NCBI RefSeq assembly: GCF_900107455.1
Contig: NZ_FNQB01000005.1
Coordinates: forward strand, 496,001-560,000
DNA length: 64,000 bases
Origin: Asanoa ishikariensis
GTDB taxonomy: Bacteria > Actinomycetota > Actinomycetes > Mycobacteriales > Micromonosporaceae
Direction: 5' to 3'
Shown: one piece after another, positions 5,774 to 19,704 of the stretch
Layout: every line of letters starts with the position of its first letter
How positions within the stretch are numbered: position 1 is the first letter of the stretch
Notes under the pieces: model-generated
Database searches by the model: none
The model's input: only the letters and a program-made list of their open reading frames with translations
What the model was told of the DNA's origin: nothing
Program-made: the position numbers and the translations under genes

Positions 5774-6448
5774 TCACCGATCAAATCGGCCACTGTCCCG
5801 AGCCGTGCGCAGTAGGAGCACCCCAATGCCTCCAAGCCAGAAGAGAAAAGTGAACACGGCGATGCGCTCCATGCCGCCCTTACCAATACCGAGCCATGGT
5901 CCGGCGAAATGCAAATACGATGCGATGAAGGCGGCGGCTCCGAGAGCGCGAGAGGTCCATCGCGCTTTCCACATAGCCGAATCGCGGCGCACGAATCCAC
6001 TGGCCAGCAACCCAATATTCGCAATCGGCATGACAAGCAGAGCAGCCAGCAGGTGCATGCCGAGATTTACATCCGCCGGGAAGACTCCCACCAACACGTA
6101 ACCGACAGCGGCCAGCAGAACACAGCTGCGGGCAAGGGTTGCTCGTCTGCCTCGGCCCCACGCGCTGCGCGCCAGCACCGCACCTGCTCCGACTAGACAC
6201 CCGAGCACTATCATGCCGATATTGAATATGAGGTGCATGGGAGAGCAAATTTCGCGTCCGTCAAAGAAGCCACAGCCGACATTACCAAGGTCGCTGATAT
6301 TATTGCTCGCCCAGCTATAATCGACGGGCCACGCAGTCTCAGGAAGGAGGTTTATCATTAGCAATACCGGCGGCACCATGGCAAGGGAAATCGCACCGAC
6401 ATAAACGGGGTTGAGTTTCCCGGAAACAATTGTCTGGGTGTTGATCAT
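5774..6448 (-). CDS. DUF998 family integral membrane protein
   Basis: 224 residues with six predicted hydrophobic helices. The signature region after helix 1 (SWASNNISDLGNVGCG, about residues 46-61) is typical of DUF998 proteins (NxISDLG), followed by HLIFNIGMIVLG and FPADVNLGMHLLAALL. These proteins sit in the cytoplasmic membrane and have no established biochemical role; some are annotated as lipid- or stress-related. The ATG at 6448 gives the usual length. The gene is less GC-rich than its neighbours, a sign of different origin. The opposite-strand frames are shadows. Confidence 0.8.
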   Translation of the reverse strand: MINTQTIVSGKLNPVYVGAISLAMVPPVLLMINLLPETAWPVDYSWASNNISDLGNVGCGFFDGREICSPMHLIFNIGMIVLGCLVGAGAVLARSAWGRGRRATLARSCVLLAAVGYVLVGVFPADVNLGMHLLAALLVMPIANIGLLASGFVRRDSAMWKARWTSRALGAAAFIASYLHFAGPWLGIGKGGMERIAVFTFLFWLGGIGVLLLRTARDSGRFDR

Positions 6449-6884: not shown

Positions 6885-9800
6885 CTATCCTCCGAATTCC
6901 TCAGCTTGTAGGCCGATGAAGACGTAGGGGTTGACACCTTTCGGGCCGATAAGGACTATCCAGTCGCCCGCGCTAAAGCCAAGAAATTGGCGTCCTCCCC
7001 CTAGTCCCGCTTCCCATTCGGCGGTGGGTTTCAGCTTGCCGCCACCGGAGAACCATAATTGCTTGGTGCCACCAAACTTGGCGATATGGGCGGCACTGGA
7101 AAGGCCCGCAGTGCCAACCGTCAAAGCAAGGTCCAACTGAATATCAGCCTTGTTCGCCTCCCAGCCACCCTCGTCTGCGATTGTTTGCTGGGTGCGCACC
7201 CCGAAAGCGGCGGCTTGGAACACCGTGCACAATGCCCAACCAACCCCAGGAATTAGGCATCCCGCGGTAGCAGCTATGGTGGCGATCATGCCGCGATGTT
7301 CCGCCGTGAAGGCCCTTACCTGTTTTTCAGTTTCACTAGTCCGGGGCTGACATGGGACACCGAAAGCGGTAGCACAACCTTCCGAATTCTTCTTGTTGCG
7401 CTTTTCGTTATCCTTCTTTTCCTTTTCTTTGTTGTTGTAGGCGTCCATCGCTGCTTGACATTTGAGGTCGCAATACCCGTCGTTAACCTCCTTATTGTGG
7501 CGTCCGCTGGGGTCGGAGAAGGTGTTCGGGTTGTTGTTGCCGTAGGAGTAGCCGTTGAGACTCTGCGGCTCATCCGCATGGAACTCAGGATCCGCACTGA
7601 TGAATCGGCCGGTGTTTGGGTCGTAGTTTCGGGCGCCGATGTTGGTGAGGCCGGTGTTGGTGTTGGCGGGTTTGTTGAGGAATTGCCGGTTGTCGATCCA
7701 CGGTGTGGTGGTGCCTCGTGGTGCTCCGTAGAGAGTGAATTGGCGCCAGGTGGGGTTTTGTGCGGTGTTGTCCAGTGCGAGGTTGGAGGTTCCGTGGGGG
7801 TCGGTGAAGGTGAATTTGTAGTTGGTGCCGGTTCCGCTGCGTGCGGCGATGCCGCCCCCTGGTAGGGGGTAGTAGCGGACGGCGGTGGTGGTTTTGGTGG
7901 TGGTGTTGAGAGTGACTTGTTGTCCGGGTAGGTAGAGGGTTGTCGCGCCGGGGTCCTTTTGGAGTAGGAGGTTGCCGTCGGCGTCGTAGATGAAGTCGCT
8001 GGCGCCGGTGTTGCTGGTGGTGCGGGTGAGTCGTCCGGCGTCGTCCCAGGTGAGGGTCTGGTTGCCCTGGCTTGCGTTGCGGTTGGTCATGTTCCCGGCG
8101 GTGTCGTAGCGGTAGGTGCTGGTGCCGCCGGTGGTGTCGGTGGTTGAGGTCAGGGTGTGGGGTTGGCTGGCGCTGTTGCCGTTGTAGGTGTAGGTGGTGG
8201 TGTTGTCGGCGCCGGTGCTGGTGGTTTTGTGTTGGATTTGTTTGGTGCGGTTTCCGAGGTCGTCGAGGGTCCAGGTGGTCCAGTAGGCGCTGGCTGGTCC
8301 GAGGTTGTCGCCGACCATGCTGTTGTTGGCGGGGGTGGGGCTGGTCGCGCAGTTGTCGGTGGCTGTCCATGCTTCGGTGAGGCGTACGAGGGTGTCGTAG
8401 GTGAAGCACTGGGTTTCGGAGGTCGCTGCTGTGCCGTTTCGGGTGGAGACCTGTCGGGTGATGTTGCCGACCTGGTCGCGGGTGTAGTCCTGCTGGTCAT
8501 AGGTGGTGGTGCCGCGGAAGATGTGGCGGCTTTTGAGTCGGCCAGTGTGGTCGTCGTATCCGTACCTGACGTCGGTGAAGTTCGGGGAGGCGCCGACGCT
8601 TTGCTGGTACGTGCGTCCCCATGCGTCGTAGGTGGTGCCCGCCGAGTAGCCGGCGGAACCGCCGAGTGTGTCGGGTAGGTCGAGGACTCCGGTGTATCTG
8701 TGGTTGACGGTCTCTTGCGGTAGTCCCCACTTGAGTGGGTATTTGTCCTCTTGGAGGAGGCCGATGTTGGGTGTGTAGGTATGGGCGCGGGTGTAGGTCG
8801 TAGCGAGCGCGCTGTCCTCGGCCGATGGGATGGTCACGGTTGTTCCCAGCGGGTTGCCGAAGACGTCGAAGCCTTTCTCCTGCACGGTGTAGGGCGCGCC
8901 GTTCCAGTAAGCGGTGGAACTGGTCCGGCGGCCGTACGGGTTGGTCACTCCGGCGACGTTCTCCGAGTTGTCATACACCCATTTGGCGAGCCGGTTCGCG
9001 GTCGTCTGAGCGTTGACGGCAGCCGCGTACTGGCCTGTTTTGCGGTTGAGGGCGTCGTAGGTGTAGGAGATCTTCTTGTTGCGGGAATCGGTGGCCTCGA
9101 CCGGGTTGCCGTTGCCGTCGTAGGTGATGGCGGTGGTCGTGCCGGCGTCGGGGTCGGTCTTGCTGGTGGCCTGGCCGAGTAGGTTGTAGGTGGTCGTCCA
9201 GGAGGCCTGGCTCGGGTCGGTGACGGTGCTGCGCTGTCCGTGCCCGTCGTATCCGTAGGTCGTCGGGATCTTGGTTCCGCCAGTGATGGTGAAGATGCCG
9301 GTGAAGGTGTTACCGGGCAGGTTCACGGCCGGCAAGGCCGTGTACTGCTCGACCTTCATGGTGCGGCCGAGTGGGTCGGTGGTCGTGGTCTGCGGCGCGC
9401 CGCCGAATGGGGGCAGGATGGTGGTGCGGTCTCCGTTATGGATGGTCCGTGTCGTGGATTGGGTCACGCCGTTGTGGACGCGGGCGTCGTAGACGACCCG
9501 GCCCAGTCCGTCGTAGGTGTAGGAGGTCTGGTTCGGGACCTGCCGGCCGAGGTTCTCCGCACCGACCAGGGTGGTGTTCGGCAGGGTGGCCGAGTCCCAC
9601 CAGCCGTTGTATGTCGCTCGGGTCCAGCCTCGGGAGTCGTAGAAGGTGTCGGTGACCATCCGCCCGGACTGGGGGGTCATCGACTGGGTCTGACGCCTGC
9701 GCAGCAGGGCGTCATAAATAGCCGTGGTGGTCTGGTAGCCGCGTGCCTCGTTCATCTTCTGGGTCGTCACGGACGTGACCGCGGTGTTGGAGACCGTGTA

Positions 9801-12800
9801 GGTGAAGGTGTAGTTCGCGGGTGTGCTGGTCGGTCGGGACGCGATCCAGGTTTTCGTGACCCTGCCCAGGGTGTCGTACTGCCGGGTGGTCGTCACACCG
9901 TTGGCGTCGGTTTCGGTGAGCACGGCGCCGGTGCGCGGGTCCAGGGTCGTCGAGCTCGGCGGGGTCAGCGGGCGGGTGACGGACACTGCCGTCGTGAGCC
10001 CGGCACTGTCCATCGTGTAGCGGGTGGCGGTTTTGTTCCCGTTGCCGTCGTGGGCGTCGGCTACCCGCCCGTAGTTGTCGTAGGTGGACCGGGCGGTGGT
10101 CTGGAAGGTGTAGGCCCCGCTGACGTAGTCGAGGGCCTTGCGGGTCATGGTGACATCACCCTTGGTCGGCGCCGCCGTCTGCGGGAAGGTCGTGGAGAAG
10201 CCGGCGTCGTCGTAGAAGGTCCGCTCGGCGGAGATCACCTGGGCGGGCCGGTTCGGCGCCGGCGCGGTCAGGGTGTTGAACCCGTTCGGGACGGACGCGG
10301 GCGTGCCCTGGGTGAAGCCGCCGCATTTGACGCTGACCTTCTCGACCTCAGCGACCAGCCCGACCAGGTTCTTCGTGACGTTGGCCGGTGCGTAGGTGTT
10401 CGTCACACACTGGTCGTACTTCGGGTCGGCGGGGACGGTGTGGGTGTAGGCGCGCTGCATCAGCCCGAACGTCGGGCTGGTGACGGACGCGTCGTAGGTG
10501 TGGTCGGTCTCGGTGACCCGCCACGTGGTCGTGCCCGTGCCCGTCAGCGCCTGCCGGGTGAACGTTTCCGCCGGTGCGACCCAGCGAGCGGTCAACGCCA
10601 CCAGCCCGACGCGGTCGCGGGTCGCGGTCGACGCCGACACCCAGTACGACGTGATCGTGGAATGGTCGACTGGGCCGCCGTCGCCGAGATACGACGTGGA
10701 CTCCAGCTCCCGCCCGGCCAGCTCGTTGAGGTCCTCGTGCGCCCCGCCTTGCGAGTCCACCACGTTCGCCACCGTGGTGTTGTTGTTCTTGGACATTCCT
10801 CGGTAGTAGGTGGTCTCCGACAGCGTCTGCGGGTCGTTGGTGCCATCACCGGTCAACGTCTGGACCTTGCCGTAACCGCGGAACTGGCCGTAGCTGCGGT
10901 GTTTGGCCTTGACCACCTCGTTGTCGTCGAAGTGCCATGCCGCTCCACCGACGTACCGGTAGTTGGTCACCACTGCGGGGGCGCCACCGGTCGGGTCGGT
11001 CGCGGTGACCTTGGCGACCGTGTACTTGTGGAACCACTGGATGATCGGATCGTCGTAGCCGGTCGGTGTCCACCGCACCGGATAACACGACTTCGTGTTC
11101 GTCGACGGGGTCACGCTCACCGGTGCCGTGCACGGGTCTGGCCGGCTATAGGAAACCTCGACCGTCGACCCGGTCTCGGTGGTGATCTTCGCGATCCGGT
11201 TCTTGTCGAACGCCGGCAAACCGTCGGACGCGGCGTCGACCCGGTTCGGCAGCTTCACCGGGTCGAACCGCACCGGCGGCAACGCGATCACCCCACCGGA
11301 ACCGCTCTCACACAACGCCACCGTGGCCACACCGGCACATCCGGTGCGCCGTACCGACGACAGCCACAGCGTCGGCGCCGTCCCGTCACCAGAGGCCGGG
11401 ATCGAGTGCGTCAATGCGTACAGGTCCACGGGCACGTACGCCGACGCGGCGACCGAATACTGCTTCGTCAAGACCGAGGTCAGACGCACGGTCGAGAAGA
11501 ACGACGGACTCCACGCCTCACACGCCGCCCCGGAACCGCACACCAGGTCGAAGGGCACATCCGGCCAGTTCGCCTTGTTCGCACCGGTCAACGGCTGACA
11601 GGTCCCCACCAGGCACCGGTCACCCACCCTGAACTCGACCCTGTTCGGCACCGTCCCGTACGCGCCGCCATCGGCGAACCCGTAGTCAACCCGCTCGAGG
11701 TAACTGTCGCGAACGTACGGCACATCGTCGGCGCCCTTGTTCTGCCCGTAATAGTTGACGTTCTGCTTGTAGTAGTACGCCATGGCGTTGCCACGCACAT
11801 CCTTGACATAGTCAAGGCTCCACCGGTAAGCCATCGTGCACACCGAGCTCGAAAACCCGGCACTGCTGTAGCACGGATCCCCCGAATGCGCCGAGAACAC
11901 CGGCACCGAATCAACCGAGTTCGTCGCCGGCTTACCCGTCGACCAACCCGGCAACCGGTTACGACCAAATGAGAACTCCGTCCCGGCCCGGTCCGTCACG
12001 GTCCAATAATCGGTGTCCCGTGTTCCCGAACCGTTGTTAGAACCCGTGACACGCTTGATCACCGCGCCCGACTCGTTCTGGGCCTTCCACACCGACTTAG
12101 CCGAATCCCACACCAATGACGTCGACGATCCATTCAACGACAACGTCAAGACCGGCCCGCTATAGCAAAGGTCATAGGTGGACACCGGCGACGGTGAACC
12201 TCCCGGACTGTCCGAACACGACGAGAACGTCTGTTCGATATACGACCGCGGACTCGACCAACCCTCACCGACCCACGATGCCTGCGCCTGCGTCGAGGCA
12301 GTCCGCCCGTCCACACCGCTGGAATCGTAGAAAAGGTCAGCATCCGGAACCAGCGACGACGACGCCGGCGGCACAGCCACAGGATACGAATGAGTGAACG
12401 CCCCCGAGCTCCCACCACCGGCCCACGATCCCGACGGACTCAGCTCAGTAGCGGCATACGTACCACCACTACTACCGCCGCTACCCGGATCAGCCTGCGT
12501 CGCGAGCACCACCGCCTCGCCACTGGCCAATCCCGAAAGCGTCACCTGCGCCGACACGCTCCCAGCCGCCACATCGTTGACCGACACCAACGGCGTCACA
12601 TCGCGGCAGGCGGCGACATCAGGAGTGGTCACGGCACAAGCGGGCAACCGCACCAACCGCAGGCGAGAACCGTAGTTGCCGCCATACGCATCGGCGAACC
12701 CGCGGTAGTCCACACCGACGCGAGCCGCCCCGACACCACTGGTCCCCGCCGCAACCGTCAGCAGGACACCCTTAACACCCGCCGCGGCAGTGGCCGCCCG

Positions 12801-13214
12801 GTCAAGCGTCCGCACCTTCACCACAGACGAACCCCCGGAGGCGCCACCCGAAAGCGACTGGGCCTGAACCCACACCCCAGTGGCCTTCCCGAAAGCCTTA
12901 CCCCCCGGCTTCCCCCCAGCCAACGGGGCAGCCACCGTCAACGACTCCGCAGCCACCGCCGGCCACGACACCGCCTTCGGAACAAAATTGCTCGGCCCGG
13001 CACTAGAGCTACGCTGCGGGAAACGACTCGCAAGCGCATGAACACCCTTCACTGCCGGGCCGCTGGGTGCCGTGGATGCCGGCGCTATTCGAGAAGAACC
13101 CCACCGATGCATCGCATTCGCAGGCGTACTCGAAGCCACCAACGTAGCGACGACACCCACCGCCACTAAAGCTGAACATTGTCGGCGTCGCACGACACCC
13201 CATTGTCTGAACAT
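6885..13214 (-). CDS. Secreted RHS/YD-repeat polymorphic toxin-type protein
   Basis: 2109 residues when started at the ATG at 13214, which has GGGG about 6 nt upstream and gives a proper Sec signal peptide (basic MFRQWGVVRRRQ, hydrophobic core, ANA cleavage site near residue 34); longer forms starting up to 13352 put non-signal sequence in front. The first ~850 residues carry an SpvB/TcaC-like secreted region (WVGEGWS). About residues 1040-1870 hold many YD repeats (YDxxGRV, YDGNGNP, YTYDALNRKTG). The RHS core motif GARNYDPNTGRFISADP is near residue 1865. After DPSGRHN a different 205-residue C-terminus follows, with a Lys-rich low-GC linker, a hydrophobic helix (CLIPGVGWALCTVFQAAAF) and a short Trp/Gly-rich tail. 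RHS shells encapsulate such C-terminal effectors. It is divergent from the LamG gene at 13485. Confidence 0.9.
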   Translation of the reverse strand: MFRQWGVVRRRQCSALVAVGVVATLVASSTPANAMHRWGSSRIAPASTAPSGPAVKGVHALASRFPQRSSSAGPSNFVPKAVSWPAVAAESLTVAAPLAGGKPGGKAFGKATGVWVQAQSLSGGASGGSSVVKVRTLDRAATAAAGVKGVLLTVAAGTSGVGAARVGVDYRGFADAYGGNYGSRLRLVRLPACAVTTPDVAACRDVTPLVSVNDVAAGSVSAQVTLSGLASGEAVVLATQADPGSGGSSGGTYAATELSPSGSWAGGGSSGAFTHSYPVAVPPASSSLVPDADLFYDSSGVDGRTASTQAQASWVGEGWSSPRSYIEQTFSSCSDSPGGSPSPVSTYDLCYSGPVLTLSLNGSSTSLVWDSAKSVWKAQNESGAVIKRVTGSNNGSGTRDTDYWTVTDRAGTEFSFGRNRLPGWSTGKPATNSVDSVPVFSAHSGDPCYSSAGFSSSVCTMAYRWSLDYVKDVRGNAMAYYYKQNVNYYGQNKGADDVPYVRDSYLERVDYGFADGGAYGTVPNRVEFRVGDRCLVGTCQPLTGANKANWPDVPFDLVCGSGAACEAWSPSFFSTVRLTSVLTKQYSVAASAYVPVDLYALTHSIPASGDGTAPTLWLSSVRRTGCAGVATVALCESGSGGVIALPPVRFDPVKLPNRVDAASDGLPAFDKNRIAKITTETGSTVEVSYSRPDPCTAPVSVTPSTNTKSCYPVRWTPTGYDDPIIQWFHKYTVAKVTATDPTGGAPAVVTNYRYVGGAAWHFDDNEVVKAKHRSYGQFRGYGKVQTLTGDGTNDPQTLSETTYYRGMSKNNNTTVANVVDSQGGAHEDLNELAGRELESTSYLGDGGPVDHSTITSYWVSASTATRDRVGLVALTARWVAPAETFTRQALTGTGTTTWRVTETDHTYDASVTSPTFGLMQRAYTHTVPADPKYDQCVTNTYAPANVTKNLVGLVAEVEKVSVKCGGFTQGTPASVPNGFNTLTAPAPNRPAQVISAERTFYDDAGFSTTFPQTAAPTKGDVTMTRKALDYVSGAYTFQTTARSTYDNYGRVADAHDGNGNKTATRYTMDSAGLTTAVSVTRPLTPPSSTTLDPRTGAVLTETDANGVTTTRQYDTLGRVTKTWIASRPTSTPANYTFTYTVSNTAVTSVTTQKMNEARGYQTTTAIYDALLRRRQTQSMTPQSGRMVTDTFYDSRGWTRATYNGWWDSATLPNTTLVGAENLGRQVPNQTSYTYDGLGRVVYDARVHNGVTQSTTRTIHNGDRTTILPPFGGAPQTTTTDPLGRTMKVEQYTALPAVNLPGNTFTGIFTITGGTKIPTTYGYDGHGQRSTVTDPSQASWTTTYNLLGQATSKTDPDAGTTTAITYDGNGNPVEATDSRNKKISYTYDALNRKTGQYAAAVNAQTTANRLAKWVYDNSENVAGVTNPYGRRTSSTAYWNGAPYTVQEKGFDVFGNPLGTTVTIPSAEDSALATTYTRAHTYTPNIGLLQEDKYPLKWGLPQETVNHRYTGVLDLPDTLGGSAGYSAGTTYDAWGRTYQQSVGASPNFTDVRYGYDDHTGRLKSRHIFRGTTTYDQQDYTRDQVGNITRQVSTRNGTAATSETQCFTYDTLVRLTEAWTATDNCATSPTPANNSMVGDNLGPASAYWTTWTLDDLGNRTKQIQHKTTSTGADNTTTYTYNGNSASQPHTLTSTTDTTGGTSTYRYDTAGNMTNRNASQGNQTLTWDDAGRLTRTTSNTGASDFIYDADGNLLLQKDPGATTLYLPGQQVTLNTTTKTTTAVRYYPLPGGGIAARSGTGTNYKFTFTDPHGTSNLALDNTAQNPTWRQFTLYGAPRGTTTPWIDNRQFLNKPANTNTGLTNIGARNYDPNTGRFISADPEFHADEPQSLNGYSYGNNNPNTFSDPSGRHNKEVNDGYCDLKCQAAMDAYNNKEKEKKDNEKRNKKNSEGCATAFGVPCQPRTSETEKQVRAFTAEHRGMIATIAATAGCLIPGVGWALCTVFQAAAFGVRTQQTIADEGGWEANKADIQLDLALTVGTAGLSSAAHIAKFGGTKQLWFSGGGKLKPTAEWEAGLGGGRQFLGFSAGDWIVLIGPKGVNPYVFIGLQAEEFGG

Positions 13215-13484
13215 CAACATCCCCAAACTTCGCGGCGGCGAGTCGACTCCATCGCCGCACTGAACTGGTTGAACTGTGCAGATCTGGAAGACGTTCGCAT
13301 GATCAACCACGCGATGATCATCGTTGGATAACAAGCCGCTCATAAATGCCACGTCCGGACCGCCCGATCGGGCACGAAACAGACTTCGTATGACTCACGT
13401 CATAGCCGAACGCGCCAATCAAAATGGTTAGCTACGCGCCATCTCCTGATGTGCGGGCACCCCCAACTGTGGAAGGTGGCTTGA
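13215..13484. promoter_or_regulatory. Shared divergent promoter region of the RHS and LamG genes
   Basis: The 270-bp stretch is the only non-coding DNA between the two giant divergent genes, so both promoters must lie here. A perfect 12-bp palindrome (CGATGATCATCG, 13312-13323) near the middle is a candidate operator. A purine-rich GGAAGGTGG lies about 7-13 nt before the ATG at 13485. I could not assign firm -35/-10 boxes. Confidence 0.5.
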
Positions 13485-16400
13485 ATGCGTTCGCTGTTAC
13501 ACCAATTGACCTTGTTCACGGCGATATCCACCGGATTGGCGACGGTCGGCTTCTCGACGGCCGCAGTGGCTGACGTCGCAGCACCTCCATCACCATCGAT
13601 TCGGGCCGCGGTGGCAGGTGGGCTGACCGACGATGAGGCAATCGCGCAGGCCAGGCGCACGGGCAAGGCCGTGGAGGTGACCGGGCGCACGTCGCCTACG
13701 GACCGGGTCGTAGCCAACGCCAACGGGTCGCTCACCCAGACGAGGCATGCTGTTCCGGTCCGCAAGCGCGTCAACGGAACATGGAAAGACCTCGACGCCA
13801 CCCTGCGCATGAATACGGATGGCGCTGTCGCCCCGTTTGCCACCAGTAGCGATTTGATCCTGTCCGGTGGTGGCGCCGGTCCGCTCGCCACGATGCGTAC
13901 GGCTGGCCGGTCGCTGGCGTTCGCGCTGCCAGTCACGCTGCCGAAGCCTGTGCTGTCGGGGTCGACCGCCACCTACGAAGGGGTCCTACCCGGTGTGGAC
14001 CTGTGGGTAGCAGCCGATCGGCAGGGCGGCTTCTCGCATGTGCTGATCGTCCACAGTGCGGCCGCCGCGGCTCACCCGGCGGTGAGGACCCTGACGCTGA
14101 CGACCTCTGGCAACGGCATGAAAGTCTCGGCCGACGCCGCGGCAAACCTTGTCGCCAAAGACAGTTTGGGTCACGCGGTGTTCGCCGCATCCGCACCCGT
14201 CACGTGGGATTCCAAGGTTGCGTCGTCCCGTGATCCCGTGGCTGATGAGGCCGGCAACCCACAACCGTCAAGCGCCGCTGGGCCTGGGCGCGCTGCGAAG
14301 AAGGCACCTGTCGCAGTGAAGCTCACAAGCAACTCGATTGCCCTTGCACCGCCAACGTCCATGCTCGCCGGTCCCGACACGGTTTATCCGCTCTACATCG
14401 ACTCGTCGTGGACGCCCGTCATGCCCACTGCTGGCGCCGCGCGCGGCGGCTACGCCAGCGTCGCCGAACAGCTGCCCTCATCGAACAAGTGGATGGGGAC
14501 CGCAGACCCGAACCCCGACAACATGCAGGTAGGCGACAGTGGGACTTGGCGTGGCCGCACCATGATCAACTTCGGTATCGACACGACGAAGTTGACGGGA
14601 GCGGCCATCACCGAGGCGCACATTGACCTCACGGACGTTTATTCCTATTCGTGCACCCCGTCCAAGACCCGGGTGTTCGCTCCATCTACGACACTGAGTA
14701 GGACCAACGCGACATGGGACTACTGGAGCGGCGTCGCGCTGGGCGGCGAGATCTCAAACCGAGCGGCTTTCGCCTACGGTTACAGCTCCGCCTGCCCTGC
14801 CCGCGCCGTCGCGTTTCCGGTGCTCGCAAGCGTAAAGGCGGCCGTCGCCGCTGGTAAGAAGACCCAAACGTTTGTGTTCACCGGTGATACCAACGAGACC
14901 ACGGATCGCAACAGCTACAAAGAGTTCTCCATCGCCAGCGCCGCGATGACAATCACCTACAACCACACGCCGACGCCACCAACAAATCTGACCACCAGCC
15001 CCGCCACACCCTGCACGGGAACTGTTGGCGCCGTGGGCGATGGCAACGTGATGTTGTACGCCCCCGTCTCCGATCCGGATGGTGGGACCCTCGGGGTCCG
15101 TTACAACGTTTGGCGGAGCGACACCCCTGGAAACCTGATCGCCTCGTCCGATCCCGCATCGTTTTCTCTCGGCTCGGGCGGCACGGCGGTCCTGGTCGTT
15201 GGCCAGCCAATCCTCAAAGCTCAGGCTCGTGGGGCAGTCACTGAGTTTTCGTGGAAAGTGCAGGTATGGGACGGATTTGCCACTAGTGGATGGTCCGATA
15301 CCTGCAAGTTCAACTTCGATCCCAATCGGTCTGGCGCGCCAGGCGTAACCCCGCCGGCCGACGGCACGACCCACATCGGCGAGCCCGTCACTATTGCGGT
15401 GAGCAAGCCCATGGGCTCGTCAAGCCTTCCGGCTCGATACCTCTACCAACTCAACGCCGGCCCGCATGCCAGCGTACCTGCCGATAGCAGCGGTAATGGT
15501 TCCATCACGATCACGCCGACCCGACGCACCAACACGCTGACCGTCAGCAGCGTGTCCGCCGGTGGCAACATCGGTGTCGACGCTGCCACGGTCACCTTCA
15601 CCACGGCCCCATTCGCCACCTTCGCCGCCGACGCCGACCTGACCGGCGACAACTTCGCCGATCTCGTTACCGTCGGCAACACCAAGGATCTACCGTCCGG
15701 CGTGTGGCTTGCGCCTGGCAAGAACACCGCGCAAGTCACGACCAGCGCCGGCAATATCGGGATCAACGGTAACGGCGTCGTCGGTGACAACCGTCCGGCC
15801 AACTTCGACGGAGCTCAGGTCGTCACCGGCATTTTCACCGGTGAAGGCCCGCAGGACGTCCTTGTCTATTACCCCACCGACACCGCAACGGCCGGGAAGG
15901 GCAGCGGCGTGGTCATTACCGGCAACGGGGACGGATCGGCGTTGCAAGCGCAACTCAGCGGCACTGGCCACACCATCCCGGCCAATGAACTGCTCGAGCG
16001 TGACGAGCTGGACGAACGTATCCCCAACACCGAGCCGATTCAGGTCGCCAACGCTGGTGACAGCATCGGCAACGACGACAACTCCGCCGACCTCATCGCG
16101 ATTGGCGGCCTGAGTGGCAACTACCACCTGAACTATTACTTCTATGCAAGCGTCCAAAACCTGCAAGGCGTCTTCCCGATCACCGCGAAGACACCTGCCG
16201 GTGACATGAACTGGAATCAGTGGCGAATCGCCACGGCCCAGACCCCAAGCGGGGTCACGAGCACAACCAGCATGTTCCTATGGCATCGCACCACTGGAGC
16301 ACTCCACCTGTGGCGTGACCTCGACATGAGCACCGGCGACCTGAGGTTCAAGTCCTATCGGCTCGCTGCGGCCGGCTGGAACACCAACGCTGACGTAACA

Positions 16401-18338
16401 CTGCAAGCTGCCGACGTCAACAGCGACTCCCTACCCGACTTGTGGGCCGTGGGCGCTGGCCAGACTGTCACCGCGCATGTGACCAGCAACCTTGTGCCCG
16501 GCAGCGGCGGTAGCAACGGTTCTGGCACGATCAGCGCACAGGCACCACAGAAGCTGACCAGTGCCCAACACAACTGGAATCTCAACGACATCGGAAGCGC
16601 TTCCTCCGGCGACACCATCACCACCGCCGCCGATAACGCGCCGACCGGCACCATTGCGCTCCCACTATCTGGCAGCAGCGGTGCGAAGTGGAAGACCGGT
16701 GACCTGTTCAGCCCGACCGCAGAGCTCGACGGCGTCAACGGCGTCCTCCACACCGCCGGCCCGGCAGTGCGAACCAATGCCGACTTCTCTGTCTCGGCGT
16801 GGGTCAAACCGTCGGTAGCAGCAGGAACCGTCCTGTCCCAGGACGGCGGTAACACCTCTGGGTTCAAGCTGTGGATCGACAGTGCCACCCGCTCGTGGCG
16901 CTTCGCGCTGTCTCGCTCGGACAGCGCCAGTGCTACCTGGGACACCGCAGCGGCACCCGACGACAGTGTCCAGGTTGGGGTATGGACCCACCTGACCGCG
17001 ACATACCGACAGAACGGTGGCACTCTCACCCTCTACGTCAACGGCGCCCATATGAAAGCCGCCACGCACACCGCCACCTGGAACGCCGCCGGCGAGTTCC
17101 GAATCGGTGACCAACGCCTCTCGGGCGCCGGTAATGGCGCCTATCTCATGGGCCAGGTTGCCGGTGTGCAGACGTGGAATCAGGTGATTGACCCGGCACA
17201 GGCCCAATCACCGGCGAGCTACTACCAGCGCATCGCTCCGACTCGATTCCTCAACACGATGAACGGCGACGGAGGATCTACCGGACCCATTGCCAGCGGA
17301 AGCACGGTCCCGCTGAAGATCGCTGGCACAGCCACGATACCCACGGCCAACGTAACAGCGGTCGCGGTGAATATCACCGTCGTCTCACCCACGACCAGCG
17401 GTTACCTGACTGCCTACCCCAGCCTGACCATTCGGCCAGGAACGAGCAACGTGAACTACAAGGGCGGGATCACCATCGCCAACTACGCCATCGTCCCAGT
17501 CGGCGCCGATGGTTACATCAACTTGTACCTAGCCACCGGCAGCGCACACCTTCTCGTCGACGTCTCCGGCTATTTCACCGCCGATGCCGCCGCCGCGGGT
17601 AACGCCACCTATGCCGCGGTCAACCCCGCCCGCGTTGTCGATAGCCGTTCGGGCCTTGGCCTCGGCTCGGCTGGCAAGATCCCGGCCGGCGCCACCCGAG
17701 ACATCACCGTGACCGGAGGCCCGGCGAACATACCTGCCGGAGCAACCGCGATCGCCGTCAACGTGACCGCCACAGGCACCACCGCAGGTGGTTACTTCGT
17801 CACCTGGGAGCAAGGCAAACCACGGCCAGCCACCTCTGGCGTCCAGTACCGTGCTGGTGGACTCACACATAGCACAATGGACATCGTCCCGGTCAACACC
17901 AGCAACGGAAAGATCTCCCTCTATACCCTACGTGAGGCCCACGCGATCATCGATGTCATGGGCTACTTCACGAACGGCACCGATGGGCAGAAATATCACA
18001 CGCTCAATGCTGCCCGCCTCATCGACACACGCTACGGCAGTTCACCGATGACAGCCACTGAGACCAGGCATGTCGCACCAGGCAACACCGTCATTGCCGA
18101 TGATCCGACGCTCGTCCTTGGGCTGACGGTGACCGAGCCGACGACCGCGGGCTTTATAACTACCCACCCGAGCGGCATCAGTCGCCCGGGGACGCCCAAC
18201 GTCAACTTCAGCGCCGGAGAAACCCTGGCTGGCACTGCGTTGGTCAACACCGGAGCGGGCGGCGGCATCGCCACTTACAACAACTCAGGCACGACTCACC
18301 TTTTGATCGACTGCACCGGCTACTTCTCCAACAACTAA
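13485..18338 (+). CDS. Secreted DNRLRE/FG-GAP/LamG protein with three C-terminal repeats
   Basis: 1617 residues. A Sec signal peptide (to about residue 29) is followed by a DNRLRE-type beta domain (about 300-500, with YASVAEQLPSSNKWMG and RTMINFGIDT), Ig/Fn3-like segments, FG-GAP/VCBS-like stretches (DLTGDNFADLVTVG and DVNSDSLPDLWAVG), and a LamG/concanavalin-like domain (about 1030-1240, FSVSAWVKPS, WTHLTATYRQNGGTLTLYVNG). The last 370 residues are three repeats of about 120 residues, each opening with R(F/V/L)(L/V/I)(N/D)(T/S) and closing with (V/D)xxGYF. All parts suggest an exported carbohydrate- or wall-binding protein. It is paired divergently with the RHS toxin gene, an arrangement suggesting a shared surface role. 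No sortase motif or membrane anchor is seen at the C-terminus. Confidence 0.85.
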   Translation: MRSLLHQLTLFTAISTGLATVGFSTAAVADVAAPPSPSIRAAVAGGLTDDEAIAQARRTGKAVEVTGRTSPTDRVVANANGSLTQTRHAVPVRKRVNGTWKDLDATLRMNTDGAVAPFATSSDLILSGGGAGPLATMRTAGRSLAFALPVTLPKPVLSGSTATYEGVLPGVDLWVAADRQGGFSHVLIVHSAAAAAHPAVRTLTLTTSGNGMKVSADAAANLVAKDSLGHAVFAASAPVTWDSKVASSRDPVADEAGNPQPSSAAGPGRAAKKAPVAVKLTSNSIALAPPTSMLAGPDTVYPLYIDSSWTPVMPTAGAARGGYASVAEQLPSSNKWMGTADPNPDNMQVGDSGTWRGRTMINFGIDTTKLTGAAITEAHIDLTDVYSYSCTPSKTRVFAPSTTLSRTNATWDYWSGVALGGEISNRAAFAYGYSSACPARAVAFPVLASVKAAVAAGKKTQTFVFTGDTNETTDRNSYKEFSIASAAMTITYNHTPTPPTNLTTSPATPCTGTVGAVGDGNVMLYAPVSDPDGGTLGVRYNVWRSDTPGNLIASSDPASFSLGSGGTAVLVVGQPILKAQARGAVTEFSWKVQVWDGFATSGWSDTCKFNFDPNRSGAPGVTPPADGTTHIGEPVTIAVSKPMGSSSLPARYLYQLNAGPHASVPADSSGNGSITITPTRRTNTLTVSSVSAGGNIGVDAATVTFTTAPFATFAADADLTGDNFADLVTVGNTKDLPSGVWLAPGKNTAQVTTSAGNIGINGNGVVGDNRPANFDGAQVVTGIFTGEGPQDVLVYYPTDTATAGKGSGVVITGNGDGSALQAQLSGTGHTIPANELLERDELDERIPNTEPIQVANAGDSIGNDDNSADLIAIGGLSGNYHLNYYFYASVQNLQGVFPITAKTPAGDMNWNQWRIATAQTPSGVTSTTSMFLWHRTTGALHLWRDLDMSTGDLRFKSYRLAAAGWNTNADVTLQAADVNSDSLPDLWAVGAGQTVTAHVTSNLVPGSGGSNGSGTISAQAPQKLTSAQHNWNLNDIGSASSGDTITTAADNAPTGTIALPLSGSSGAKWKTGDLFSPTAELDGVNGVLHTAGPAVRTNADFSVSAWVKPSVAAGTVLSQDGGNTSGFKLWIDSATRSWRFALSRSDSASATWDTAAAPDDSVQVGVWTHLTATYRQNGGTLTLYVNGAHMKAATHTATWNAAGEFRIGDQRLSGAGNGAYLMGQVAGVQTWNQVIDPAQAQSPASYYQRIAPTRFLNTMNGDGGSTGPIASGSTVPLKIAGTATIPTANVTAVAVNITVVSPTTSGYLTAYPSLTIRPGTSNVNYKGGITIANYAIVPVGADGYINLYLATGSAHLLVDVSGYFTADAAAAGNATYAAVNPARVVDSRSGLGLGSAGKIPAGATRDITVTGGPANIPAGATAIAVNVTATGTTAGGYFVTWEQGKPRPATSGVQYRAGGLTHSTMDIVPVNTSNGKISLYTLREAHAIIDVMGYFTNGTDGQKYHTLNAARLIDTRYGSSPMTATETRHVAPGNTVIADDPTLVLGLTVTEPTTAGFITTHPSGISRPGTPNVNFSAGETLAGTALVNTGAGGGIATYNNSGTTHLLIDCTGYFSNN

Positions 18339-18436: not shown

Positions 18437-19341
18437 ATGAAGCAGGCTCGTCTCGTCGGCCTCGGCGGAACATTGGCCATCCTGGGTCCCGCGTTCGCTG
18501 TGATCGCGTATGTGGCCGCGCTGCCGAGTCTGATCAGCGAGTTACGCCTGGCCGGGCGCCGCATGAACTTGCTCGAGGTTTTGAGCCAGCCTGAACGGCG
18601 ACGAGCGTTCTACGGCGAGCTCATGTCCGACCCGCGGGCCGTCAAGGAGACCAGGCTGTTCGGCTCCGGGGCTACCTGCTCGGCGGGATGACCCATGAGT
18701 ACCGTGATTTCGCGGCCTGGGAACGGGCCATGGAATACCGGGACTGGCGGTCCACGGCGCGCTGCTGGCCCCGTCGATCGGCCTCATCGCGCTCGCCGTC
18801 CTGATGTGCATCAACGGCGCGCGCGACCGGACTGCTTACGGCCGGCGATGTGTCGGTGGTGCTGGCCGGTCTCATGGCGGTCCAAGCGGTGCGGATTACC
18901 GCGACCTCGATCTGGAGTCACTGCAGCGCCGCATCGGAACCGTGTTCCAGGACTTCATGGAGTACGACCTCAGTGCAGCTGACAACACCGCCGTCGCTGA
19001 CACCGTGTAGGACCTGCCGCGGGTCAGGGCCGCTGCCAACGCGGCGGGCGTCGATTGCTCTTCCTCGACATGCCGTCGGGGTACTCGACGATCATCACCA
19101 GGAGGTTCATGCAATGTCCACCGAGGTGCAGTCGGTCGGCGACGCCACCCTACTCTCCGGTGGACAGTGGCAACGGGTGGCCATCGCCAGGGCCAGCCTG
19201 TGGACCGACTCCGACCTGCTGATCCTCGACGAACCAAGCGCGGCGCTGGATCCAGAGACGGAGGCAGCGATCCGCGAAAGACTCGCCGACATCAGGCATG
19301 AGAGAACATCGATTCTCAAGATCTGGATTAGTGCATCTTGA
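18437..19341 (+). pseudogene. ABC transporter (permease-ATPase fusion), degraded
   Basis: Pieces of one ABC exporter half-molecule appear in order in different frames. A TM helix and the cytoplasmic loop RRAFYGELMSDPRAVKETRLFG are in the first frame; a further piece follows (TSS near 18690, MTHEYRDFAAWERAMEYRDW spread over a frame change). The ATPase then reads [20 protein letters not shown] with the Q-loop, a TAG in place of a codon after DTV, and finally the signature [15 protein letters not shown] and Walker [15 protein letters not shown]. Walker A is missing and the end after the D-loop is replaced. Several indels and a stop mean no functional product. This is known architecture for lantibiotic/multidrug exporters; the fragment lies just downstream of the LamG terminator. 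Confidence 0.8.
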
Positions 19342-19365
19342 CCCTTTGTAGAGTTTCTATATAGT
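19338..19365 (+). promoter_or_regulatory. Promoter of the PadR operon (leaderless)
   Basis: TTGACC (19338-19343), a 16-bp spacer and TATAGT (19360-19365) form a near-consensus promoter. The expected transcription start, 6-7 nt after the -10 box, coincides with the ATG at 19372, so the message is predicted to be leaderless. The AT-rich stretch stands out from the surrounding GC-rich DNA. Confidence 0.7.
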
Positions 19366-19371
19366 GCTGTC

Positions 19372-19704
19372 ATGCGGATGACGATTCCGGTGGCACGGGT
19401 GCTGGCCGCGTTGCTGAGCGAGCCCGATGTCGATCGGTACGGCCTCGACCTGATGAGAATGACCGATCTGGCCAGCGGCACGCTCTACCCGGTGCTGCAC
19501 CGGCTTCAAGCGGCCGGCTGGCTCGCGGCCGATTGGGAGTCGGTTGATCCGGCTTCAGTGGGCCGGCCTGCGAGGCGGTACTACCGACTGACTGCGGAGG
19601 GAGTCACCGCGGCGCGACGCGCGCTCGCGGAACTGCGAAGCTTGGCTCCCGACAGTGGCCGTGTGCTTGGCGGTGCTGATCCGGCCGGGGCGCCGGCATG
19701 GTGA
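19372..19704 (+). CDS. PadR family transcriptional regulator
   Basis: 110 residues. The winged-helix DNA-binding domain of PadR proteins is complete: VARVLAALLS, YGLDLMRMTDLASGTLYPVLHRL (recognition region) and the wing GRPARRYYRLTAEG. It has a short C-terminus like PadR-s1 members. Its stop overlaps the start of the following membrane-protein gene, an operon arrangement in which the PadR protein commonly represses its own operon and responds to membrane or drug stress. The ATG directly follows a strong promoter and no ribosome-binding site is present. Confidence 0.85.
   Translation: MRMTIPVARVLAALLSEPDVDRYGLDLMRMTDLASGTLYPVLHRLQAAGWLAADWESVDPASVGRPARRYYRLTAEGVTAARRALAELRSLAPDSGRVLGGADPAGAPAW

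Follow-up and report, generated by a model that had tools for sequence, protein, structure and literature searches.

A recurrent pair of genes for an RHS shell protein and a LamG-containing partner in actinobacteria, and its possible role as a split polymorphic toxin

The subject of this report is a pair of genes from Asanoa ishikariensis, located in a stretch of 64,000 bases that is called here the window (bases 496001-560000 of contig C6, in a genome of 9.09 Mb in 11 contigs). The two genes are long, uninterrupted open reading frames (ORFs) that face apart, one coding for an RHS shell protein on the minus strand, the other for a LamG-containing protein, hereafter the partner, on the plus strand. 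The pair recurs in many actinobacterial genomes, the trees of its two members match, and regions of the partner type are found fused to RHS proteins in other genes. The two genes probably encode a single device, a split polymorphic toxin of WapA-like build that consists of two proteins, with the glycan-binding half made in trans. More tentatively, they may represent a widespread class of two-gene actinobacterial weapons, in which an SpvB-type RHS cage carries an exchangeable toxin and a dedicated DNRLRE/LamG partner carries an exchangeable glycan-binding tip, payload and address varying independently.

The two proteins and the recurrence of the pair

The pair has the following parts (coordinates in the window):

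6885..13352, minus strand: RHS shell protein, 2155 amino acids from GTG 13352, or 2109 from ATG 13214
6885..7466, minus strand: C-terminal tail beyond the RHS core, at the toxin position; no Pfam match at E <= 1
7503..7730, minus strand: RHS repeat-associated core domain, residues 1875-1950 of 2155 (Rhs_assc_core, 54.6 bits, cut-off 32.5)
10503..13007, minus strand: N-terminal region common to RHS proteins with a partner, SpvB-like in relatives
13215..13484, no strand: shared intergenic region of 270 bp, from the RHS ATG start to the LamG gene
13485..18338, plus strand: partner (LamG) protein, 1617 amino acids, secreted by appearance
13626..14984, plus strand: N-terminal part of the partner that is conserved (profile A5) and may serve for docking; occurs next to RHS genes (in trans) or joined to RHS in a single protein
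14517..14936, plus strand: DNRLRE-like domain, residues ~345-484 (30.6 bits, cut-off 34, E 1.5e-6)
16743..17201, plus strand: LamG (concanavalin A-like lectin) domain, residues 1087-1239 (Laminin_G_3, 76 bits, cut-off 27.6)
17220..18326, plus strand: three C-terminal repeats of ~120 amino acids each, the exchangeable tip, residues ~1246-1614

When the region was shuffled 200 times under a first-order Markov model, the longest run free of stops averaged 296 codons and never exceeded 492, so that chance does not account for ORFs of 2155 and 1617 codons. Both are collinear with their relatives along the full length, at about 50% identity. For the RHS gene we prefer the internal start codon, ATG 13214, with which a signal-peptide-like stretch begins. 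An intact pair of giant secreted ORFs with a gap of 270 bp, as stated in the preliminary description of this DNA, is borne out by the coordinates, the ATG start and the shuffles.

In the window RHS protein, RHS_repeat matches five stretches (52.6 bits, cut-off 22), and the protein thus has both the RHS/YD repeats and the RHS-associated core that distinguish RHS polymorphic toxins. In sequence, the RHS part is similar to RHS proteins of solved structure, TcdB2-TccC3 among them. Solved relatives of the N-terminal region were looked for, and none were found; likewise, the Pfam scan reports no propeller family, such as the integrin-like beta-propeller that follows SpvB in toxins of the TcdB/TcaC type, for the protein or for this region. 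SpvB matches 19 of the 30 aligned members of the RHS N-terminal region at E <= 0.01, and the window copy is not among them.

The partner had been described as a LamG, DNRLRE and three-repeat protein. The LamG domain scores above its cut-off and the repeats are present, but the DNRLRE domain is found at sub-threshold level only; in the family, DNRLRE reaches E <= 0.001 in nine of 33 aligned partners. For the triple repeat, neither a Pfam match at E <= 1 nor a relative of solved structure was found. A search for solved relatives of the N-terminal region of the partner gave two weak matches, a splicing factor (E 0.0039) and an alginate lyase (E 0.075), neither of which is believed. Under a crude rule, an N-terminal hydrophobic stretch is present in 96 of 105 RHS proteins and 98 of 105 partners, and in one and two of 105 internal control segments, respectively.

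The pair was followed in a survey set of 31 genomes, the window's own and 30 relatives. Searches with the LamG protein produce two kinds of match, either to its N-terminal part or to its C-terminal repeats alone, the latter on many other proteins. An RHS gene of the window subtype adjoins the N-terminal match in 31 of 38 neighbourhoods; of the other seven, three have both parts fused in one ORF (L068, L069, L072), three are at contig ends (L040, L048, L075), and in L039 the partner region faces an RHS-type ORF of another kind. We also scanned the genomes of 84,980 species with a profile of the RHS N-terminal region, which returned at least 579 relatives. Among the best 80 of these, which were kept, the partner is in tandem at 45 loci, divergent at 29, convergent and downstream at one, and absent from five. 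Two of these five end at a contig edge, and hence the partner is present in 75 of 78 testable RHS relatives, all in named actinobacteria. The window's own subfamily comprises 22 loci at 54-67% identity, 18 of them divergent, one tandem and three without a partner, in Micromonospora, Catellatospora, Paractinoplanes, Actinomadura, Streptomyces, Kitasatospora and other genera.

Because the RHS profile was built mostly from partner-adjacent RHS genes, the pairs were recounted in the 31 genomes using three independent lists: RHS cores (111 matches), partner N-terminal regions (71), and RHS N-terminal regions (55 in 53 loci). There are 63 partner-type regions longer than 900 bases, with an RHS core near on the same strand (35), near on the opposite strand (6), in the same ORF (16), or nowhere near (6); in all, 57 of 63 have an RHS core, either close by (41) or in a fused protein (16), and four of the six RHS-less regions sit on short contigs of one draft genome. 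The preliminary description had suggested searching actinobacterial genomes for the pair, and in these it recurs whichever of the two genes is taken as the starting point. Counted from the RHS side, 40 of the 111 cores have a partner-type region near, 16 are fused to one, and 55 have neither; a partner lies within 6.5 kb at 37 of the 53 loci that carry the RHS N-terminal region. Modules of the partner type thus occur almost exclusively with RHS proteins, of which half make use of one, be it within a single chain or from a second gene. It is as a second gene that the module accompanies the SpvB-like RHS N-terminus: the SpvB-like region is absent from all fused ORFs that join partner region A5 to RHS, so that the cis and trans forms alternate. 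No other gene is as constant, since the next most recurrent neighbour family is found in only 13 of 118 loci, in a count restricted to proteins of up to 900 amino acids.

The pair system also travels on plasmids. The RHS N-terminal region is present in 105 of 72,556 plasmid records, 97 of them from Streptomyces; in the four plasmid neighbourhoods examined out of these 105, a large protein adjoins the RHS gene (three divergent, one tandem), identified as a partner by its LamG-like or FG-GAP-like annotation rather than by the partner profile. A D-glucuronyl C5-epimerase gene was considered as a conserved third member and rejected: it directly follows the partner only in two Streptomyces plasmid records (L156, L157) and in one genome (L088), not in the window. 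In those three loci it is a possible sugar-modifying companion. In Kitasatospora paracochleata the pair occurs twice (L089 and L090), with an identical RHS tail each time; each copy is near a contig end, and the two are perhaps the terminal repeats of a linear chromosome.

Joint inheritance and changing orientation

For comparison of trees, 105 pairs were kept; left out were partner matches that scored below 200 bits or lay farther than 2.2 kb from the RHS ORF, and L064, which is short and broken. Distances in the RHS tree and in the partner tree, both built with FastTree and compared directly, with no species tree, correlate at r=0.77. When partners are re-paired within genera, the mean r over 500 draws is 0.43 and the maximum 0.545. 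Correlation is also high inside single genera: in Streptomyces (n=21, r=0.90) and Nonomuraea (n=16, r=0.95) none of 2000 shuffles is as high, and in Microbispora (n=6, r=0.93) five of 2000 are. The nearest relatives of both window proteins are found in the same loci, namely L095, L077, L080, L082, L096 and L038.

The two genes stay together through repeated changes of orientation. The 105 pairs comprise 74 tandem and 31 divergent ones, and orientation has changed at least six times on the RHS tree and at least eight times on the partner tree. The divergent shared promoter, which had been put forward as the key feature of the pair, is therefore not essential to it, and we rejected it as a defining trait. 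Nor was a common motif seen in the divergent intergenic regions; the commonest 6-mer is present in 12 of the sequences compared.

A further tree was made of 56 partner-type regions, i.e., 36 taken from the 105 pairs (some chosen, 25 random), the 16 fused ones, and four (L180-L183) that were labelled as trans without individual check. In this tree, 36 of the 40 separate regions form one clade beside the fused ones (Shimodaira-Hasegawa-like approximate likelihood ratio test, SH-aLRT, support 100); those outside it are three of L180-L183, plus L148. This suggests that the module became separate mainly once and that the two genes have since descended together for a long time.

These results bear on the notion that the two genes are chance or hitch-hiking neighbours with no functional link, to which one might attribute the 16 of 53 RHS genes of this subtype that lack a partner. 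Such an explanation would have to account for the fusions, the matched trees, the changes of orientation without separation and the lack of any other recurrent neighbour, and is hardly credible.

Exchangeable ends and a possible mechanism

Both proteins vary at their distal ends. The RHS tails that follow the core differ widely from locus to locus, in a comparison from which at least six loci are omitted, their tails not being separable by motif. Plasmid copies are annotated as HINT-containing or restriction-endonuclease-fold toxins, and in annotated cases small genes directly follow the RHS gene, one of them named as an Imm1 family immunity protein. In three loci (L081, L083 and L038) the RHS tail ends in a glycine-rich hydrophobic stretch that looks, by eye, like a pore-former; L081 and L083 are among the loci without a LamG partner.

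Partners of the window subfamily are collinear over residues ~45-1240 and differ beyond. The window partner and those of L095 and L091 have the triple repeat as their tip, and in L038 nothing further follows. Ten partner tails were scanned, and FG-GAP repeats were found in five, ricin-B-type trefoils in four (one with copies of LamG), and neither in one. With RHS tails and partner tips both differing, payload and tip vary separately. The three-repeat C-terminus had been offered as a marker of the pair, for which it is not diagnostic: it is present in two partners besides the window's, of the 15 compared in the subfamily, and also ends many other proteins of the same and related genomes. In the A. 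ishikariensis genome itself, two regions of contig C2 (L017, 515001-533000, and L018, 640001-655000) hold arrays of ORFs of ~850-950 amino acids with matches to right-handed beta-helix proteins, which end in the same triple repeat as the window partner.

In the mechanism that we propose, both proteins would be exported by Sec, and the RHS protein would form a YD-repeat cage ending in an exchangeable toxin tail. The partner would present, in order, the conserved N-terminal part with the DNRLRE-like domain, then LamG, then a tip of lectin or propeller type. By analogy with known toxins, we infer that its N-terminal part docks on the RHS shell, acting in trans here and, when fused, in cis in other RHS proteins, and that the distal part binds a surface glycan and holds the shell there. 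The surface in question would more likely be that of a competing cell, otherwise the producer's own wall. A joint system of surface delivery or recognition, with the LamG protein as the partner, had been suggested on the strength of the divergent promoter; that argument falls, but neighbourhood, co-inheritance and fusions argue strongly for such a system.

The alternative surface deserves attention. The partner could anchor the toxin to the wall of its producer, as the wall-binding region of WapA working in trans, with the cage kept on the hyphal surface until contact. Laminin-G domains are usually N-terminal in such toxins and likely serve as anchors to the producing cell, according to the passages on them in Zhang et al. 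(2012, PMC3482391), and the N-terminal part of Streptococcus suis WapA, with DNRLRE and LysM, is wall-associated in the account given in PMC12704120. The occurrence of the window partner's tip on other secreted proteins of its own genome also suits a common surface module. On the other hand, exchange of the tip between close relatives suits varying targets better than one fixed wall, and neither a sortase motif nor a transmembrane end was noticed by eye on the partner. Given the exchanged tips, we prefer targeting by a modest margin of belief, and regard anchoring as unlikely, if well worth keeping in mind.

The constancy of the partner outside its tip also speaks to whether it might confer immunity to the RHS toxin or neutralise it. 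Adjacency alone favours this idea. The partner tree, however, follows the RHS shell, the protein is collinear over the same residues in relatives whose toxin tails are unrelated to that of the window, and separate small genes, such as the one annotated as Imm1, exist directly after the RHS gene in annotated loci. We consider the immunity role very improbable and rejected it.

Several observations weigh against the reading of the pair as one split toxin. The profile scan, with its origin in paired genes and its best 80 of at least 579 relatives, favours pairs. Half of the RHS cores in the recount (the 55 mentioned above) have no partner-type region, and among the 16 of 53 same-subtype loci without a partner some, not all, are broken or at contig ends. 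The A. ishikariensis genome itself has a partnerless RHS paralogue of the window subtype, one of four (C3:1235438-1241038). As to the window proteins, the DNRLRE match of the partner is below the curated cut-off, and the crude signal-peptide rule misses this partner. Close relatives of the window RHS tail were not found in the sets searched, and no immunity gene was recognised after the window RHS gene, where the small ORFs were not compared with immunity families.

The last two points may have an explanation of their own, in which the pair is real in the family and the window copy is a relic, with an eroded or orphan tail in a decaying region. The variable RHS C-terminus that had been noted holds for the family, but in this copy the tail is an orphan, with only two weak matches (E 4.9e-4 and 9.2e-4) in ORFs of 588 and 524 amino acids. 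The frequency of G or C at third codon positions is 0.80 and 0.76 in the two genes, as compared to 0.83-0.89 in RHS paralogues of the same genome. Coding density around the pair is low, and its neighbours are visibly split: directly downstream of the LamG gene (18437-19400) one sees, by eye, ABC-transporter-like pieces in different frames, then a PadR-like stretch. By a crude measure of coding density, the parts at 18.4-64 kb and 0-6.8 kb score 0.41 and 0.43; of five stretches elsewhere in the genome, four score 0.77-0.90 and one 0.44. The score also misses the LamG gene itself, and part of the low value may therefore reflect unusual codon use rather than damage. The earlier statement that most other genes of the region are broken is thus only roughly supported: low density and split neighbours agree with it, but the same score fails on an intact gene. 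Against the relic stand the two uninterrupted ORFs of 2155 and 1617 codons, whose collinearity at ~50% identity would be hard to keep by chance; moreover, new toxin tails often have no relatives. Decay of this copy is a distinct possibility, though not the outcome we would expect. Its effector may be new, worn or inert, and the activity is doubtful.

Elsewhere around the pair, a DUF998 membrane protein is encoded at 5774-6448 on the minus strand, downstream of the RHS gene and beyond the small ORFs. RNA families and tRNAs were looked for in the window, and none were found. The region of the partnerless paralogue (L016, C3:1228001-1247000) has low coding density too.

Comparison with known systems

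RHS toxins, SpvB-type RHS proteins and N-terminal laminin-G domains are already known. The pairing was thought not to have been described as one system, and among open PubMed Central papers we likewise found no description of a two-gene unit of RHS and a LamG partner. In actinobacteria, most RHS toxins are annotated as stand-alone genes that lack a delivery route, and the adjacent LamG proteins as lectins that have nothing to do with them. Should both belong to a single device, hundreds of annotated genes would acquire a partner, and with it a mechanism open to testing. The question raised by WapA, of how such a large cage is held and aimed at a surface, would then become approachable through a separate holding protein that can be cleanly removed.

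WapA of Bacillus subtilis and S. suis is the closest in plan. As presented in the sections of PMC12704120 that deal with it, WapA shares Sec-type export, an RHS cage with a variable C-terminal toxin, and a DNRLRE-type module in the N-terminal surface part, to which the sub-threshold domain of the window partner would correspond; DNRLRE and RHS-core families both match in the B. subtilis control genome. In S. suis, the wall-binding part, with DNRLRE and LysM, is at the N-terminus of a single chain. The system described here differs in that surface part and cage, one chain in WapA, are products of two genes, tandem or divergent, and in having LamG and exchangeable tips in place of LysM. In the window the two ORFs lie on opposite strands, and the single-chain forms are separate genes in related genomes.

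SpvB-RHS toxins of the TcdB/TcaC type (Zhang et al. 2012) and the BC cage of Tc toxins are similar in the SpvB-like N-terminus of the 19 relatives and in the likeness of the RHS part to TcdB2-TccC3. Unlike this class, the window copy has no SpvB match, and the neighbourhoods, counted for proteins of up to 900 amino acids, do not repeatedly contain another gene, for instance one for a TcA-like subunit. The account of the TcdB/TcaC class, in the portion of Zhang et al. (2012) devoted to it, has no partner gene. The same paper links LamG to RHS through the N-terminal laminin-G domains of secreted polymorphic toxins; the link there is in cis, and here it is made by a separate, co-inherited protein. 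LamG is also among the annotated domains in a Rickettsia paper that has RHS, LamG and polymorphic toxins within its scope, going by the relevant excerpts (PMC9111745).

The umbrella toxins (Umb) of Streptomyces offer another parallel. They too are secreted weapons that actinomycetes build from several proteins, one bearing a polymorphic toxin and another the variable lectins that are used for targets, as outlined in the pertinent parts of PMC11062931. Umb toxins are built on ALF repeats, with separate UmbA and UmbB, in contrast to the RHS cage and DNRLRE/LamG lectin protein of the present pair; the window RHS protein has no ALF repeats, RHS_repeat being the only family that Pfam reports at E <= 0.01.
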